In this document: positions 11,099 to 57,902 of the stretch, in pieces | How the letters are laid out: every line of letters begins with the position of its first letter | How positions within the stretch are numbered: the first letter of the stretch is position 1 | Origin: Halapricum salinum | GTDB taxonomy: Archaea; Halobacteriota; Halobacteria; Halobacteriales; Haloarculaceae | Length of the DNA stretch: 64,000 nt | NCBI RefSeq assembly: GCF_004799665.1 | Contig: NZ_CP031310.1 | Span: forward strand, 798,887-862,886 | Direction of reading: 5' to 3' | Program-made: the position numbers and the translations under genes | The notes under the pieces: model-generated | Databases searched by the model: none | The model's input: only the letters and a program-made list of their open reading frames with translations | Told to the model about the DNA's origin: nothing

Positions 11099-11574
11099 GC
11101 GCTAGCTCGCTCTCCGTAGCGAGCCCCAACCAGAGAGGGACCGGAGGTCCCTCAAGCAGTCGACGCACAGCGCCGACGACTCCGAGCCTGTCGGGGCTTT
11201 CTGAGTGTTCTCCACGGTATCGTCCCAGAAAGCCCCCGGACGCTCGACTCGGGGGACTCGCTGCGCTCCTCGCCTCGCTACGCTCGGCTGCGGTGCTTAC
11301 GTCGTCCGCCATCGTCGAGCGTCCGGCCCCTTTCAGTCCTGAAAGACTCGCGACGCTCGTCTTTCAACCCTCGCCTCACTTCGTTCGGCTCAGTCCCACC
11401 CACAGCACCACACCCTCCCCAGCCGACTCCCTCACTCGCGGCGCTCGTTCGGTCGTCCCTCGCACGCCGCCGCCTCGCGATGAAACGCGAGCCAGCGCGC
11501 GCCACATCGTCTGGATCATCGTGTTCGATATCTAGAGAGCAATCTTTGAGTAGCCCCCCCTCCACCCATCGGCA
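11099..11574. repeat. Composite inverted-repeat element, family A copy 2
   Basis: The 476 bases between the truncated regulator and pyrF repeat much of the element at 2.1-2.7 kb. Conserved parts are CCGAGCCTGTC (11182-11192), the stem GGGGCTTTCT (11193-11202)/AGAAAGCCCC (11227-11236), the stem GGACGCTCGA (11238-11247)/TCGAGCGTCC (11315-11324), GCCCCTTTCAG, and GAAAGAC/GTCTTTC. The third stem differs from copy 1 on both arms in a compensating way. The left part instead carries hairpins GCTCGCT/AGCGAGC (11105-11124) and GAGGGACC/GGTCCCTC (11135-11153). The pyrF promoter must lie within the last 50 bases. Confidence 0.75.
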
Positions 11575-15486: not shown

Positions 15487-15571
15487 GCGAGCCGAAGGCT
15501 CGCGAGGAAACCCGAAGGAGGAAGAAGCGGTAGTGGACCACCGAAAGACCCACTCCGTTCGTCTTTCGAGC
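15487..15571. repeat. Hairpin pair related to repeat family A
   Basis: Between hicA and tRNA-Ala lie GCGAGCC GAA GGCTCGC (15487-15503) and a CGAAAGAC/GTCTTTCG hairpin (about 15541-15571). The second hairpin, including the TCCGTTCGTCTTTCG side, is the same module found in family A at 2282-2308 and, slightly changed, at about 11342-11371. This is probably a fragment of the same dispersed element. Confidence 0.5.
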
Positions 15572-15637
15572 TCTCACTCGCTCACGGGACGCTGGCACAC
15601 GCTACGCGGTGCTCGCCGAGTTGTTCGCGAGAGAATA

Positions 15638-30104: not shown

Positions 30105-30290
30105 CACTTTTTCCGCCTCGGGCGTCCTCGCGCGCTCTACAAAGCGCGCTGCGGGCACCCTGCGGCGCAAAAACTTGGGGAAAAAGGCCGGAATCGCCTT
30201 ATCAGGGCGATTCCGGGGAAACGGCGGCCTGGTGGCCGCCGTATGCTGGTGGTGGCCGCGACCGCAATGTCGGTAACATCACCGGGACCA
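30105..30290. repeat. Dispersed hairpin repeat, family B copy 1
   Basis: The serA/HSDR_N intergenic region holds two strong hairpins: GCGCGCT (30130-30136)/AGCGCGC (30143-30149) with a six-base loop, and CCGGAATCGCC (30188-30198)/GGCGATTCCGG (30206-30216) with a seven-base loop. The linking sequence GCGGGCACC...AAAAACTTGGGGAAAAAG is shared with copy 2 near 54.5 kb in the opposite orientation. Shared sequence extends on both sides (TCGGGCGTCCTCGCG before, GTATGCTGG...CCGCGACCGC after). Confidence 0.75.
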
Positions 30291-54435: not shown

Positions 54436-54650
54436 CGAACCGCGGTCGCGGTCCAGCATACACCGACCACAGGGAGGCGTTTTTCCGTCAGAGCGAAGCT
54501 CTGACGACGTCAACGTCGTTACACACCGTTGACCACCGGAATCGCCCTCGCAAGGCGATTCCGGCTTTTTCCCCAAGTTTTTCTCGCGAGCGGTGCCCGC
54601 AGCGAGCGCGTTCATGCGCTCGCGAGGACACCCGAGCGAGAAAAAGTGGT
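54436..54650. repeat. Dispersed hairpin repeat, family B copy 2 (inverted)
   Basis: Reverse-complement relative of 30105-30290. It has CCGGAATCGCC (54536-54546)/GGCGATTCCGG (54554-54564) with a seven-base loop, followed by CTTTTTCCCC, and CGAGCGC (54603-54609)/GCGCTCG (54616-54622) with a six-base loop. Compared with copy 1 the second stem has changed on both arms. Read on the + strand, the first hairpin plus T-run looks like an intrinsic terminator for the zinc-ribbon gene. The element ends directly at the EF-2 stop codon. Confidence 0.75.
54536..54569 (+). terminator. Hairpin with T-run
   Basis: The 11-base-pair stem at 54536-54564 is followed by CTTTTT at 54564-54569, a terminator-like layout for + strand transcripts leaving the zinc-ribbon gene at 54426. 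It is part of repeat family B, so termination may be a side function of the repeat. Confidence 0.4.
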
Positions 54651-56837
54651 TTAGAAGTAGTCGATCATCTCGGGCAGTTCCTGCTTCATGCCCTTGCGCT
54701 CGCGGATCTCGGCAATCTTCTCCGGCTGGAGGTTGTCGGCCATGACGCGGAAGCCGGCGTTCTCGGTGTTCCAGGAGGCGCGGCCTTCCGTGGCCGAGCG
54801 GATGTCACTGGAGAAGCCGATCATCTCGTCGACGGGCGCGATGCCCTCGACGACCATGAGGTCGCCTTCCTGGTACATGTCGTCGACGCGGCCACGGCGG
54901 CCCTGGATCTCACCCGATGCGGCGCCCATGTGCTCGTTAGGGACGTCGATACGGACGTCCTGAATCGGTTCGAGCAGGCGGATCTCGGCGTCCATCAGGG
55001 CGTTGTGGACGGCCTGGCGGACGGCCGGGATGACCTGGGCGGGACCGCGGTGGATGGCGTCCTCGTGCAGGCGTGCGTCGTGCAGGCGGATGAGCGACCC
55101 CTGAACCGGCTCGTTGGCCAGCGGGCCGTCGTCGAGGGCCTCTTCGAGGCCTTCGATGACGAGCTCCATCGTCTCGTTGAGGTGCTGGATCCCCTTCGTG
55201 TCGTCGATGAAGATGTTGGTGCCGTGGATGTGCTCGACTTCCTGGGAGGTGTCCTTGTCGAGGCCGGCGTCCTGGAGCGCTTCGCGGCGTTCCAGTTCGG
55301 GCATGTCCATGCTGGCCTCGCCGAGCTTGATCGTCTCGACGATGTCCTCGTCGAGGGGTTCGACGGTGATGTAAAAGCGGTTGTGGCGGTTCGGCGAGAT
55401 ACCCTCGACCTCGCGGCTCGAACTCTGGGGGGCCTCGCGGTAGACGACGATCGGTTCACCGGTGGTGATCGGAATGCCCTGGTTGCGCTCGATACGCTGG
55501 CCGATGACTTCGAGGTGGAGTTCACCCTGCCCGGAGATGAGGTGCTCACCGGTGTCCTCGTTGATCTCGATCTGGATCGTCGGGTCTTCCTTGGCGACCT
55601 GCTGGAGCGTCTGGATGAGCTTCGGCAGATCGTCCATCGACTGTGCCTCGACGGATTTGGTGATGACTGGCTCGGAGATGTGCTCGATAGACTCGAACGG
55701 CGTCATCTCGACGCTACTGACCGTGGAGCCGGCAATGGCGTCCTTGAGGCCGGTGACGGCGGCGATGTTCCCCGCGGGGACTTTCTCGACTTCCTCGCGT
55801 TCGCCACCCATGTAGATACCGACGCTCTGGACGCGGTTTTTGCCCGCAGTCCCGGAGACGTACAGCTCCTGGCCCTTTTCGAGGGTGCCCGAGAAGACAC
55901 GGCCGGCGGCGATTTCGCCGGCGTGAGGGTCGATACCGATGTCGGTGACCATCAGGACGACTTCGCCGTTCTCGTCGACCAGACGCATGTCCTCGGCGAG
56001 TTCGGATTCGTCGTCACCACGCCAGATGCGCGGCACGCGCATCGGCTGGGCATCGATGGGGTTCGGGAAGTGCTCACAGACCATGTCGAGCACGACATCG
56101 CTGAGCGGCGTCCGCTCGTGGAGTTCCTGGCGTTTGTCGGCGCGTTCGAGCTCCATGATTTCGCCGAAGTCCATCCCGGTGCGCTGCATCGAGGGCATCG
56201 AGACACCCCACTTGTACAGCGCCGACCCGAAGCCGACCGTGCCGTCCTCGACGGAGACGGTCCAGTCGTCGATGTCGTCCATCTCCTCGGTCATGCCGCG
56301 GATGAGTTCGTTGACGTCGCGGATGACGGCCAGGAGACGCTCCTGCATCTCCTCGGGCCCTTCCTGGAGCTCGGAGATGAGGCGGTCGACCTTGTTGATG
56401 AACAGGGTCGGTTTGACACCCTCGCGGAGTGCCTGTCGCAGCACCGTCTCAGTCTGAGGCATGGCCCCTTCGACGGCGTCCACGACGACGAGCGCGCCGT
56501 CGACGGCGCGCATCGCTCGCGTGACGTCCCCGCCGAAGTCGACGTGGCCGGGGGTGTCGATGAGGTTGATGAGGTGGTTGGTGTCCTCGTACTCGTGGGT
56601 CATCGAGACGTTGGCCGCGTCGATGGTGATCCCGCGTTCCTGTTCGTCTTCCTCGGTGTCCATCATCAGCTTCGTCGCCTCGCCTTCGTCGGCGATCATG
56701 CCGGCACCGGCGAGGAGATTGTCTGTCAGCGTCGTCTTGCCGTGGTCGACGTGAGCAGCGATGGCGATGTTCCGGATGTTCTCCGGCTTGTCCATCAGTG
56801 TCTCACATTCCTGGACAATTTTCTTGCGTCGGCCCAT
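54651..56837 (-). CDS. fusA: Translation elongation factor EF-2
   Basis: 728 residues. G-domain motifs AHVDHGKT (28-35), DTPGHVDF and NKVDR are intact, and [13 protein letters not shown] near residue 600 contains the His modified to diphthamide. It drives translocation on the ribosome. The conserved start [12 protein letters not shown] fixes the ATG at 56837; the frame is open for another 222 codons upstream, but only because GC-rich repeats lack stops there. A CTTTTGAC box at about 56862-56870 on this strand fits the promoter. Confidence 0.97.
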
Positions 56838-56874
56838 TATGCGCGTCTCTACCGGAAGGAGGGTCAAAAGGGTA

Positions 56875-57108
56875 GTGTTTCGGCCTGAGGGCGACGGTTC
56901 AGAGCCCGAAGGCCGAAGCTCGGGAGGCGCCGAGGGAACGAGGCGTCTCCAGGTGTTTCCGCGTGAGCGCGACGATTGGAGCGCGAACGCGGAAGCTCGG
57001 CAGGGAGCGAGCCTGTCGAGCGGACTGCCGGTGTTTCCGCGTGAGTGCGCTATACAGGCGCACGAACGTCGAAGCCCGGTGGAGACGACCGGAAAGGAGC
57101 TATGCGTT
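56875..57108 (+). repeat. Three tandem 78-base structured units
   Basis: Units start at 56875, 56953 and 57031, exactly 78 apart, each opening GTGTTTC. In every unit an outer stem, the trinucleotide TGA, an inner stem, GAA and the outer stem partner follow in order: CGGCC-TGA-GGGC/GCCC-GAA-GGCCG; CCGCG-TGA-GCGC/GCGC-GAA-CGCGG; CCGCG-TGA-GTGCGC/GCGCAC-GAA-CGTCG (weaker outer stem). A second short hairpin follows each (for example CTCGG/CCGAG, GCTCG/CGAGC, CCGGT/ACCGG). As RNA from the + strand, UGA/GAA makes a U-A pair plus tandem sheared G-A pairs. Stem bases vary with compensation while the internal loop stays constant. Confidence 0.7.
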
Positions 57109-57149
57109 CCCAAACAGTCATACGTCTCTGCCCCGTGTGACCAACACAC

Positions 57150-57902
57150 ATGGACATACGGGTCACAGGCGACGGCCCGGCAGAACCGTTCCTCGGTGCG
57201 GCGAGCCTCTTCGAGACCGAGCACGACCTCCAACAGCAGGTCCACATCGAGATCAGGGAGGATCCGGACGAGCGGACGCGGGTCAGCCACGACGACGACA
57301 CACACCGACTGGTCATCTCCCGGCAGGCAGCCACGAGCGCGATGGCCCGCGAACTCGCATTGCACGAGTTCGGGCACATGCGTCACCACGAAGACGGCCA
57401 CCCCTCGCACGTCCAGTCCCTGGAAGAAGTGCTCTTTCTGGCGCTGACGGGCCGCAGCGTCGAGCGGCGGAAAGTGACACACTGCTATCAGATAGCCAAC
57501 CACGTCAAGGACATCTACGCCGACGACCTCTGGATCGGGCTAGCACCGACTGAAAAGCTCGTTCGATTCTTCGAGTCGACGCTGGCGGCGGCGGTCGCGG
57601 ATCGACCGACTGCCACGTCCCCAGCGTGGAAACGGCTGACTCCTGCTGCCGATCCCGACATCACCGCCGTCAACGCCGCGTTCGCGCTGGCGCTGTGTGA
57701 GCGCCACGACCTCCTCGACCGCGGTCATCGGATCTACGAACTCGCCAGGGTGGCCGCCCGGGACGCCCCCGAGGTCGGCTTCGAGACGTTCAAACACCGG
57801 TTTCGGGCGCTCGATCCCGAGCCCGACGAGAGCGACTACCGCAAGTCGATGGTCGAGATTACCCGCGAGTACGTCCTGGGTGGCGAGCAGGCCGCGGATT
57901 GA
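57150..57902 (+). CDS. DUF5781-like protein with an HEFGH motif
   Basis: 250 residues. HEFGH (72-76) in an [13 protein letters not shown] context is the zinc-metallopeptidase HExxH form, and a Glu-rich helix ([10 protein letters not shown]) follows about 15 residues later as a possible third-ligand region. The rest is helical and acidic. I associate it with haloarchaeal DUF5781 from memory. No signal peptide, so it would act in the cytoplasm. It lies downstream of the tandem structured units, in the direction their RNA would be transcribed. Confidence 0.65.

Follow-up and report, generated by a model that had tools for sequence, protein, structure and literature searches.

In a 64,000-nucleotide window of the Halapricum salinum genome, three two-hairpin units stand in tandem at the promoter of elongation factor EF-2. 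We consider this feature, with a probability of about two in three, a tandem array of a haloarchaeal dispersed palindromic repeat, similar to REP and Rickettsia palindromic elements (RPE), rather than an EF-2-specific RNA. The repeat family occurs in most Halobacteriales genomes and can be searched by a precise structural signature. Evidence points to its insertion into genes in frame, with corresponding empty sites, and its tendency to form arrays at one promoter is unexplained. Apparently, the family has not been described before: no published description was found in the papers searched, with most subscription journals outside that scope. It also calls for caution, as covariation and strand bias in archaeal intergenic DNA need not imply a non-coding RNA.

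At the sequence level, GTGTTTC boxes begin at 56875, 56953, and 57031, spaced by exactly 78, and two hairpins alternate between them (Table 1). The initial annotation had reported these three units, the order of their stems around TGA and GAA, and a weaker third unit, all of which we found; in the third unit, hairpin A is kept and hairpin B is cut to a stub. The annotation took the UGA/GAA loop as the conserved element. The loop is present, but the conserved foot is longer than noted: GTTTC...GAAGC in hairpin A and TCG...CGG in hairpin B. The placement between EF-2 (-) and a 'HEFGH' protein gene (+) was also right, the neighbours being aEF-2 and a DUF5781 protein. No open reading frame accounting for the repeat was found, so a protein-coding explanation fails. 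Positions 56800-57160 match no Rfam family up to E=5, and no second array of the same kind came up when 464 kb of this genome were scanned for clusters of strong hairpins.

Table 1. Coordinates of the array, its neighbours, and a probable further copy in the window
Feature	Position	Strand	Evidence or remark
Probable further family copy, 3' of tRNA-Ala	15540..15592	-	R3 28.8 bits, E 0.0023
Elongation factor aEF-2	54651..56837	-	TIGR00490, 1004.8 bits
EF-2 promoter region: CTTTTGA TATA-like box, then GAAACAC box (+ strand AGTGTTTC)	56863..56881	-	putative promoter role
Tandem array of three two-hairpin units (period 78), third truncated	56875..57092	+	
Hairpin A1: GTTTC-CGGCC-UGA/GAA-GGGC...GAAGC	56877..56919	+	
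Hairpin B1 (foot TC/GG)	56920..56953	+	
Hairpin A2	56955..56996	+	
Hairpin B2	56997..57031	+	A2+B2: unit matched independently by R3 (56953-57032, 31.4 bits; E 7e-4, 464 kb of this genome searched)
Hairpin A3	57033..57075	+	
Hairpin B3, short remnant (CCGG...CCGG)	57076..57092	+	
DUF5781 protein ('HEFGH' protein)	57150..57902	+	PF19093

The units fold, and they do so as the + strand, in line with what the initial annotation had proposed. The RNA minimum free energy of 56860-57120 was -140.4 kcal/mol on the + strand (z -7.35; 0/200 shuffles as low) and -106.7 kcal/mol (z -4.08) on the - strand. When folded as single-stranded DNA, the + strand was again better (-67.4 vs. -58.2). The stem changes had been described as compensated, and this was confirmed on 30 EF-2 hairpins A: the covariation score was 0.409 vs. 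0.139 for shuffled data, with 74 double changes vs. 22, and ten pairs changed on both sides with pairing kept. The UGA/GAA motif, previously called constant, is so only in part, with G-A/A-G in 22/30 hairpins, both positions Watson-Crick in 7/30, and one intermediate. Foot pair 4-45 of hairpin A is a U-G wobble in 29/30, and the foot of hairpin B also carries a fixed wobble. In two-hairpin EF-2 units (n=20; covariation 0.355 vs. 0.126 shuffled), U-G was present at both feet in 20/20, and hairpin B displayed its own tandem G-A (18/20 and 17/20), closed by a covarying pair. Outside the fixed feet, the curated hairpins contained 12 G-T mismatches vs. 1 A-C (binomial p = 0.003). The mismatch bias and the covariation point to a folded + strand, compatible with RNA or single-stranded DNA alike.

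To compare the locus across haloarchaea, EF-2 upstream regions were gathered from about 110 genomes of several families. BLASTN on 146 genomes of the family of H. salinum gave strong matches directly upstream of EF-2. In several haloarchaeal families, arrays of one to several units begin at the same EF-2 promoter box (AGTGTTTC), with the common start AAAAGGGTAGTGTTTC. The box, which doubles as the 5' foot of hairpin A1, is retained also in haloarchaea and families without the array. The CTTTTGA motif lies on the - strand about 26-32 nt upstream of the EF-2 ATG and is a plausible TATA box of EF-2. Array size ranges from none to several units and differs among close relatives, and the unit period is nearly constant (77-80). 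The stems of the first hairpin are wholly unlike among congeneric species (CGGCC, CCGCG, CGTGG) with EF-2 proteins about 93-96% identical over the compared stretches; at the sequence level, this looks like replacement of units and not stepwise compensation. The array is kept beside EF-2 in three loci (L011, L024, and L025) where the fetched stretch showed no adjacent DUF5781 gene, which makes a leader of DUF5781 unlikely.

The EF-2 hairpins are interrupted by other mobile elements in L022 (genome G063), L025 (G072), and L057 (G136), and the inserts comprise a transposase-bearing insertion and small inverted-repeat elements. Other changes were seen at this locus. In L061 (G120), a 137-bp double unit is repeated nearly exactly in tandem at 673-1135 and thereby enlarges the array, and in L235 (G045) another repeat (GAAGCGTGTCAAAGACACGCGAACACGGAAACGAGCGGTGGGGTGGTGGATGCGTTG) occupies the EF-2 upstream region from about 980, in about seven tandem copies. 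In the window, a hairpin at 54485-54507 (TCGTCAGAGCTTCGCTCTGACGG), 3' of the EF-2 stop, looks like hairpin B of the family.

Covariance models and a search of haloarchaeal genomes, the check suggested with the initial annotation, gave covarying pairs and homologous arrays in other genomes, together with a family dispersed beyond EF-2. The hairpin A model retrieved similar units at two genes, sufD and one for a redoxin, in each case at the 3' end, and the two-hairpin model retrieved weaker copies in many haloarchaeal families. We built a further covariance model, R3, from 25 aligned copies, none from EF-2. These dispersed copies presented a covariation of 0.419 vs. 0.131 shuffled; in 25/25, the U-G foot was found in both hairpins and both G-A positions of hairpin A were non-Watson-Crick. 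At E<=0.001, R3 matched at least 263/293 Halobacteriales genomes (about 90%) and at least 11 copies in this genome; these counts are lower bounds, with at most 18 candidates per genome scored, and the covariance-model E-values are rough, given the short calibration. In 244 kb of control DNA from other archaea and bacteria, R3 gave no match at E<=1. Besides the second unit of the array studied here (Table 1), R3 matched EF-2 units of other genomes. Since the model was built without EF-2 units, these matches argue for the dispersed repeat.

The family unit is about 51-80 nt long and consists of two hairpins, A from G[TC]GT to GGC and B from TCG to CGG, with the constant linkers CGGYGT and GCTCG. 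The stem between foot and tip varies freely if paired, and a tandem G-A motif is usual near the tip of each hairpin. By a simple ORF method, 20/25 classified copies were intergenic, and most copies are located past the ends of genes. In 14/20 of the intergenic copies, the neighbour is a convergent gene whose 3' end the copy faces, and the copy would be antisense to its mRNA; thus, the copies are unlikely to be transcribed consistently in sense. About ten copies or more are present in one genome of family f17, inferred to be Haladaptataceae-like from the promoter match of L155 alone, and several of these lie 40-100 nt beyond stop codons. Other double hairpins were observed in this genome. Two hairpin pairs that resemble each other, GAGCCGAACG...GTCTTTCGGGACTGAAAGGGG and a near variant of it, lie at 2257-2310 and 11338-11391 of the window, within an apparent larger repeated element, and a double hairpin after GAAAAAGG (CCGGAATCGCC...GGCGATTCCGG, then ACGGCG...) has two copies, at 30187-30240 of the window and at L258:13233-13290.

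Signs of insertion were found at several sites. Within the Kae1 gene (TIGR03722), a 57-nt copy lies in frame in several genomes of family f7 (among them G296, G397, and G429) and adds the peptide ...GVSASNASGGSSDERSESDG... to the protein. The Kae1 site is empty in four genomes of the same genus as G296 (G314, G389, G445, and G446), and so, as read from these genomes, the repeat is both present and absent at one site. The Kae1 copy in G336 (L378) has 10-bp direct repeats (CGACGGCGTC) on both sides, and the one in G449 is decayed. For copies beside tRNA genes, the tRNA 3' end is repeated on both flanks. The Kae1 presence and absence, the repeats flanking the tRNA copies, and the mobile elements inside EF-2 hairpins further favour a dispersed repeat at EF-2.

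We infer that the repeat is, or was, a non-autonomous mobile element that moves via a single-stranded hairpin. The + strand of the DNA would fold when single-stranded, on the lagging strand for instance, and a putative enzyme would recognise it through its structure plus the constant feet. Insertion would take place at sites like CGACGGYGT, and the inserted element would be flanked by two copies of the site. The EF-2 array could have grown by repeated insertion or by unit duplication from the promoter-proximal GTGTTTC box, used as the first foot, and its effect on EF-2 would most likely be neutral tolerance upstream of the core promoter. Some findings stand against the dispersed repeat. EF-2 units are 77-80 nt long vs. 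51-67 nt for most dispersed copies, the better ones reach just 25-35 bits with R3, and the first EF-2 box reads TAGTGT instead of CGGTGT. At EF-2 itself, no insertion event was seen, and mobility there is putative.

Regarding known systems, the closest features are those of bacterial REPs and their BIME clusters, which are also small, palindromic, dispersed, and mostly intergenic, often near gene ends and sometimes within genes; they form clusters or arrays and are targets for other mobile elements (PMC3733652). With its many copies, mostly extragenic, the haloarchaeal palindrome shares the basic definition of a REP. Insertion of mobile elements into bacterial REPs has likewise been reported (PMC1525189). 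However, the repeat reported here is archaeal and joins two hairpins that differ from each other and keep the same order; its feet are paired, with a U-G wobble, and its tips carry tandem G-A. CGTC REPs carry an unpaired CGTC/TGTC tag, A-T first pairs, and a CCA tail, without a linked RAYT (Y1/HUH) transposase, and GTAG REPs carry an unpaired GTAG tag (PMC3733652). In our copies, GTC is paired with GGC in 25/25, the stems do not start with A-T, and there is no CCA tail. Thus, we assign the repeat to neither the GTAG nor the CGTC REPs. No haloarchaeal name occurs in the text of a REP survey from 2025 (PMC12306157). Rickettsia palindromic elements are also found in frame in conserved protein genes and add a short peptide; the Kae1 copy does the same in a conserved gene with homologues that lack it. 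In contrast to them, this repeat is haloarchaeal and mostly intergenic, and the likeness is one of features. The nearest haloarchaeal elements, compared by description only, are the PATEs and SMRs of Haloquadratum walsbyi, which are non-autonomous, with palindromes near the ends of PATEs (PMC3119063). Small repeats of this species insert into near-terminal palindromes (PMC3119063). Unlike the repeat studied here, PATEs are related to IS605-type elements and make no target duplication, and a core-deleted 52-bp form exists (PMC3119063).

Several other explanations were weighed. One keeps the spread but lets the host target supply one hairpin arm, by pairing-guided targeting of single-stranded DNA or by inverted copying of the target on insertion. 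In purH (...HRCFRHD-stop), sufD, and the redoxin gene, the last codons of the host gene themselves form the 5' arm of the first hairpin and pair with its 3' arm, so that either the site was picked by complementarity or the arm was copied from the host. These host-codon arms, the tRNA 3' end as outer arm, and a central linker strand (...GGCTCG...) complementary to the target on both sides speak for this explanation, and the pairing with host codons, not predicted by a mobile element of fixed sequence, counts against the dispersed repeat as we favour it. We hold a target-supplied arm to be rather unlikely. Transcription of the array from the + strand into a structured RNA that acts on translation or EF-2, either as a small RNA or as a protein sponge, is unlikely too. 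It would fit the strong + strand fold, the fixed U-G wobble, the tandem G-A pairs that switch as a block to Watson-Crick, and the position beside EF-2 conserved in several families. CsrB/RsmZ-type sponge RNAs are multi-hairpin strings, and the array shares with them a string of similar hairpins, although here many copies are dispersed in the genome. The covarying structure expected of a non-coding RNA is present, and equally fits single-stranded DNA, which would also explain the strand bias. Moreover, the same architecture occurs at hundreds of loci without a common transcriptional orientation, unit number varies from none to several among close relatives, and Rfam is silent. An RNA specific to EF-2 was initially preferred, as BLASTN and the hairpin A model were strong only at EF-2 in the genome's own family, and it was dropped with the related units at sufD, the redoxin gene, purH, tRNA genes, and Kae1. 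Thus, from the initial annotation, the covarying, strand-specific fold with tandem G-A is supported, and the non-coding RNA or leader particular to EF-2 is not.

The array could also act as regulatory DNA, with repeated GAAACAC boxes upstream of the EF-2 TATA binding an activator or setting local supercoiling, and the hairpins as cruciforms. The first box lies within a promoter region kept in the sampled families, the array begins exactly at a box, and the period hardly varies; yet most haloarchaea sampled have the box without the array, the 3' foot is GAAGC and not GAAAC, so the DNA site is not symmetric, and the dispersed copies are not upstream of a shared gene set. We regard this role as doubtful. 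Terminators of divergent (antisense) transcription from the EF-2 promoter seem more doubtful still. The hairpins read away from EF-2, hairpins are able to terminate transcription in Haloferax (PMC7237163), and TTTTT follows many copies in one Haladaptataceae-like genome, but the EF-2 units have no U-tract, the intergenic termination motif of Haloferax is a T stretch (PMC7237163), and copies inside coding genes would be harmful. Finally, a CRISPR-like array has next to no chance of being correct. The five-base feet of hairpin A (GTTTC...GAAGC) are identical to those of haloarchaeal CRISPR repeats, wobble included. The genomic distribution disagrees, since G002, G062, G063, G064, and G138 have arrays without such a CRISPR repeat; in addition, a CRISPR array would have unique spacers between identical repeats, whereas here the 'repeats' of a single array vary and conserved hairpins take the place of 'spacers'. 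A lone CRISPR-type repeat (GTTTCAGACGGACCCTCGTGGGGTTGAAGC) occurs in this genome at L262:1875-1904 (G000:C1:201875-201904), with no array of that repeat, and one variant copy is present in each of G001 and G004, of the same genus; it is possibly a solo, CreA-like repeat.
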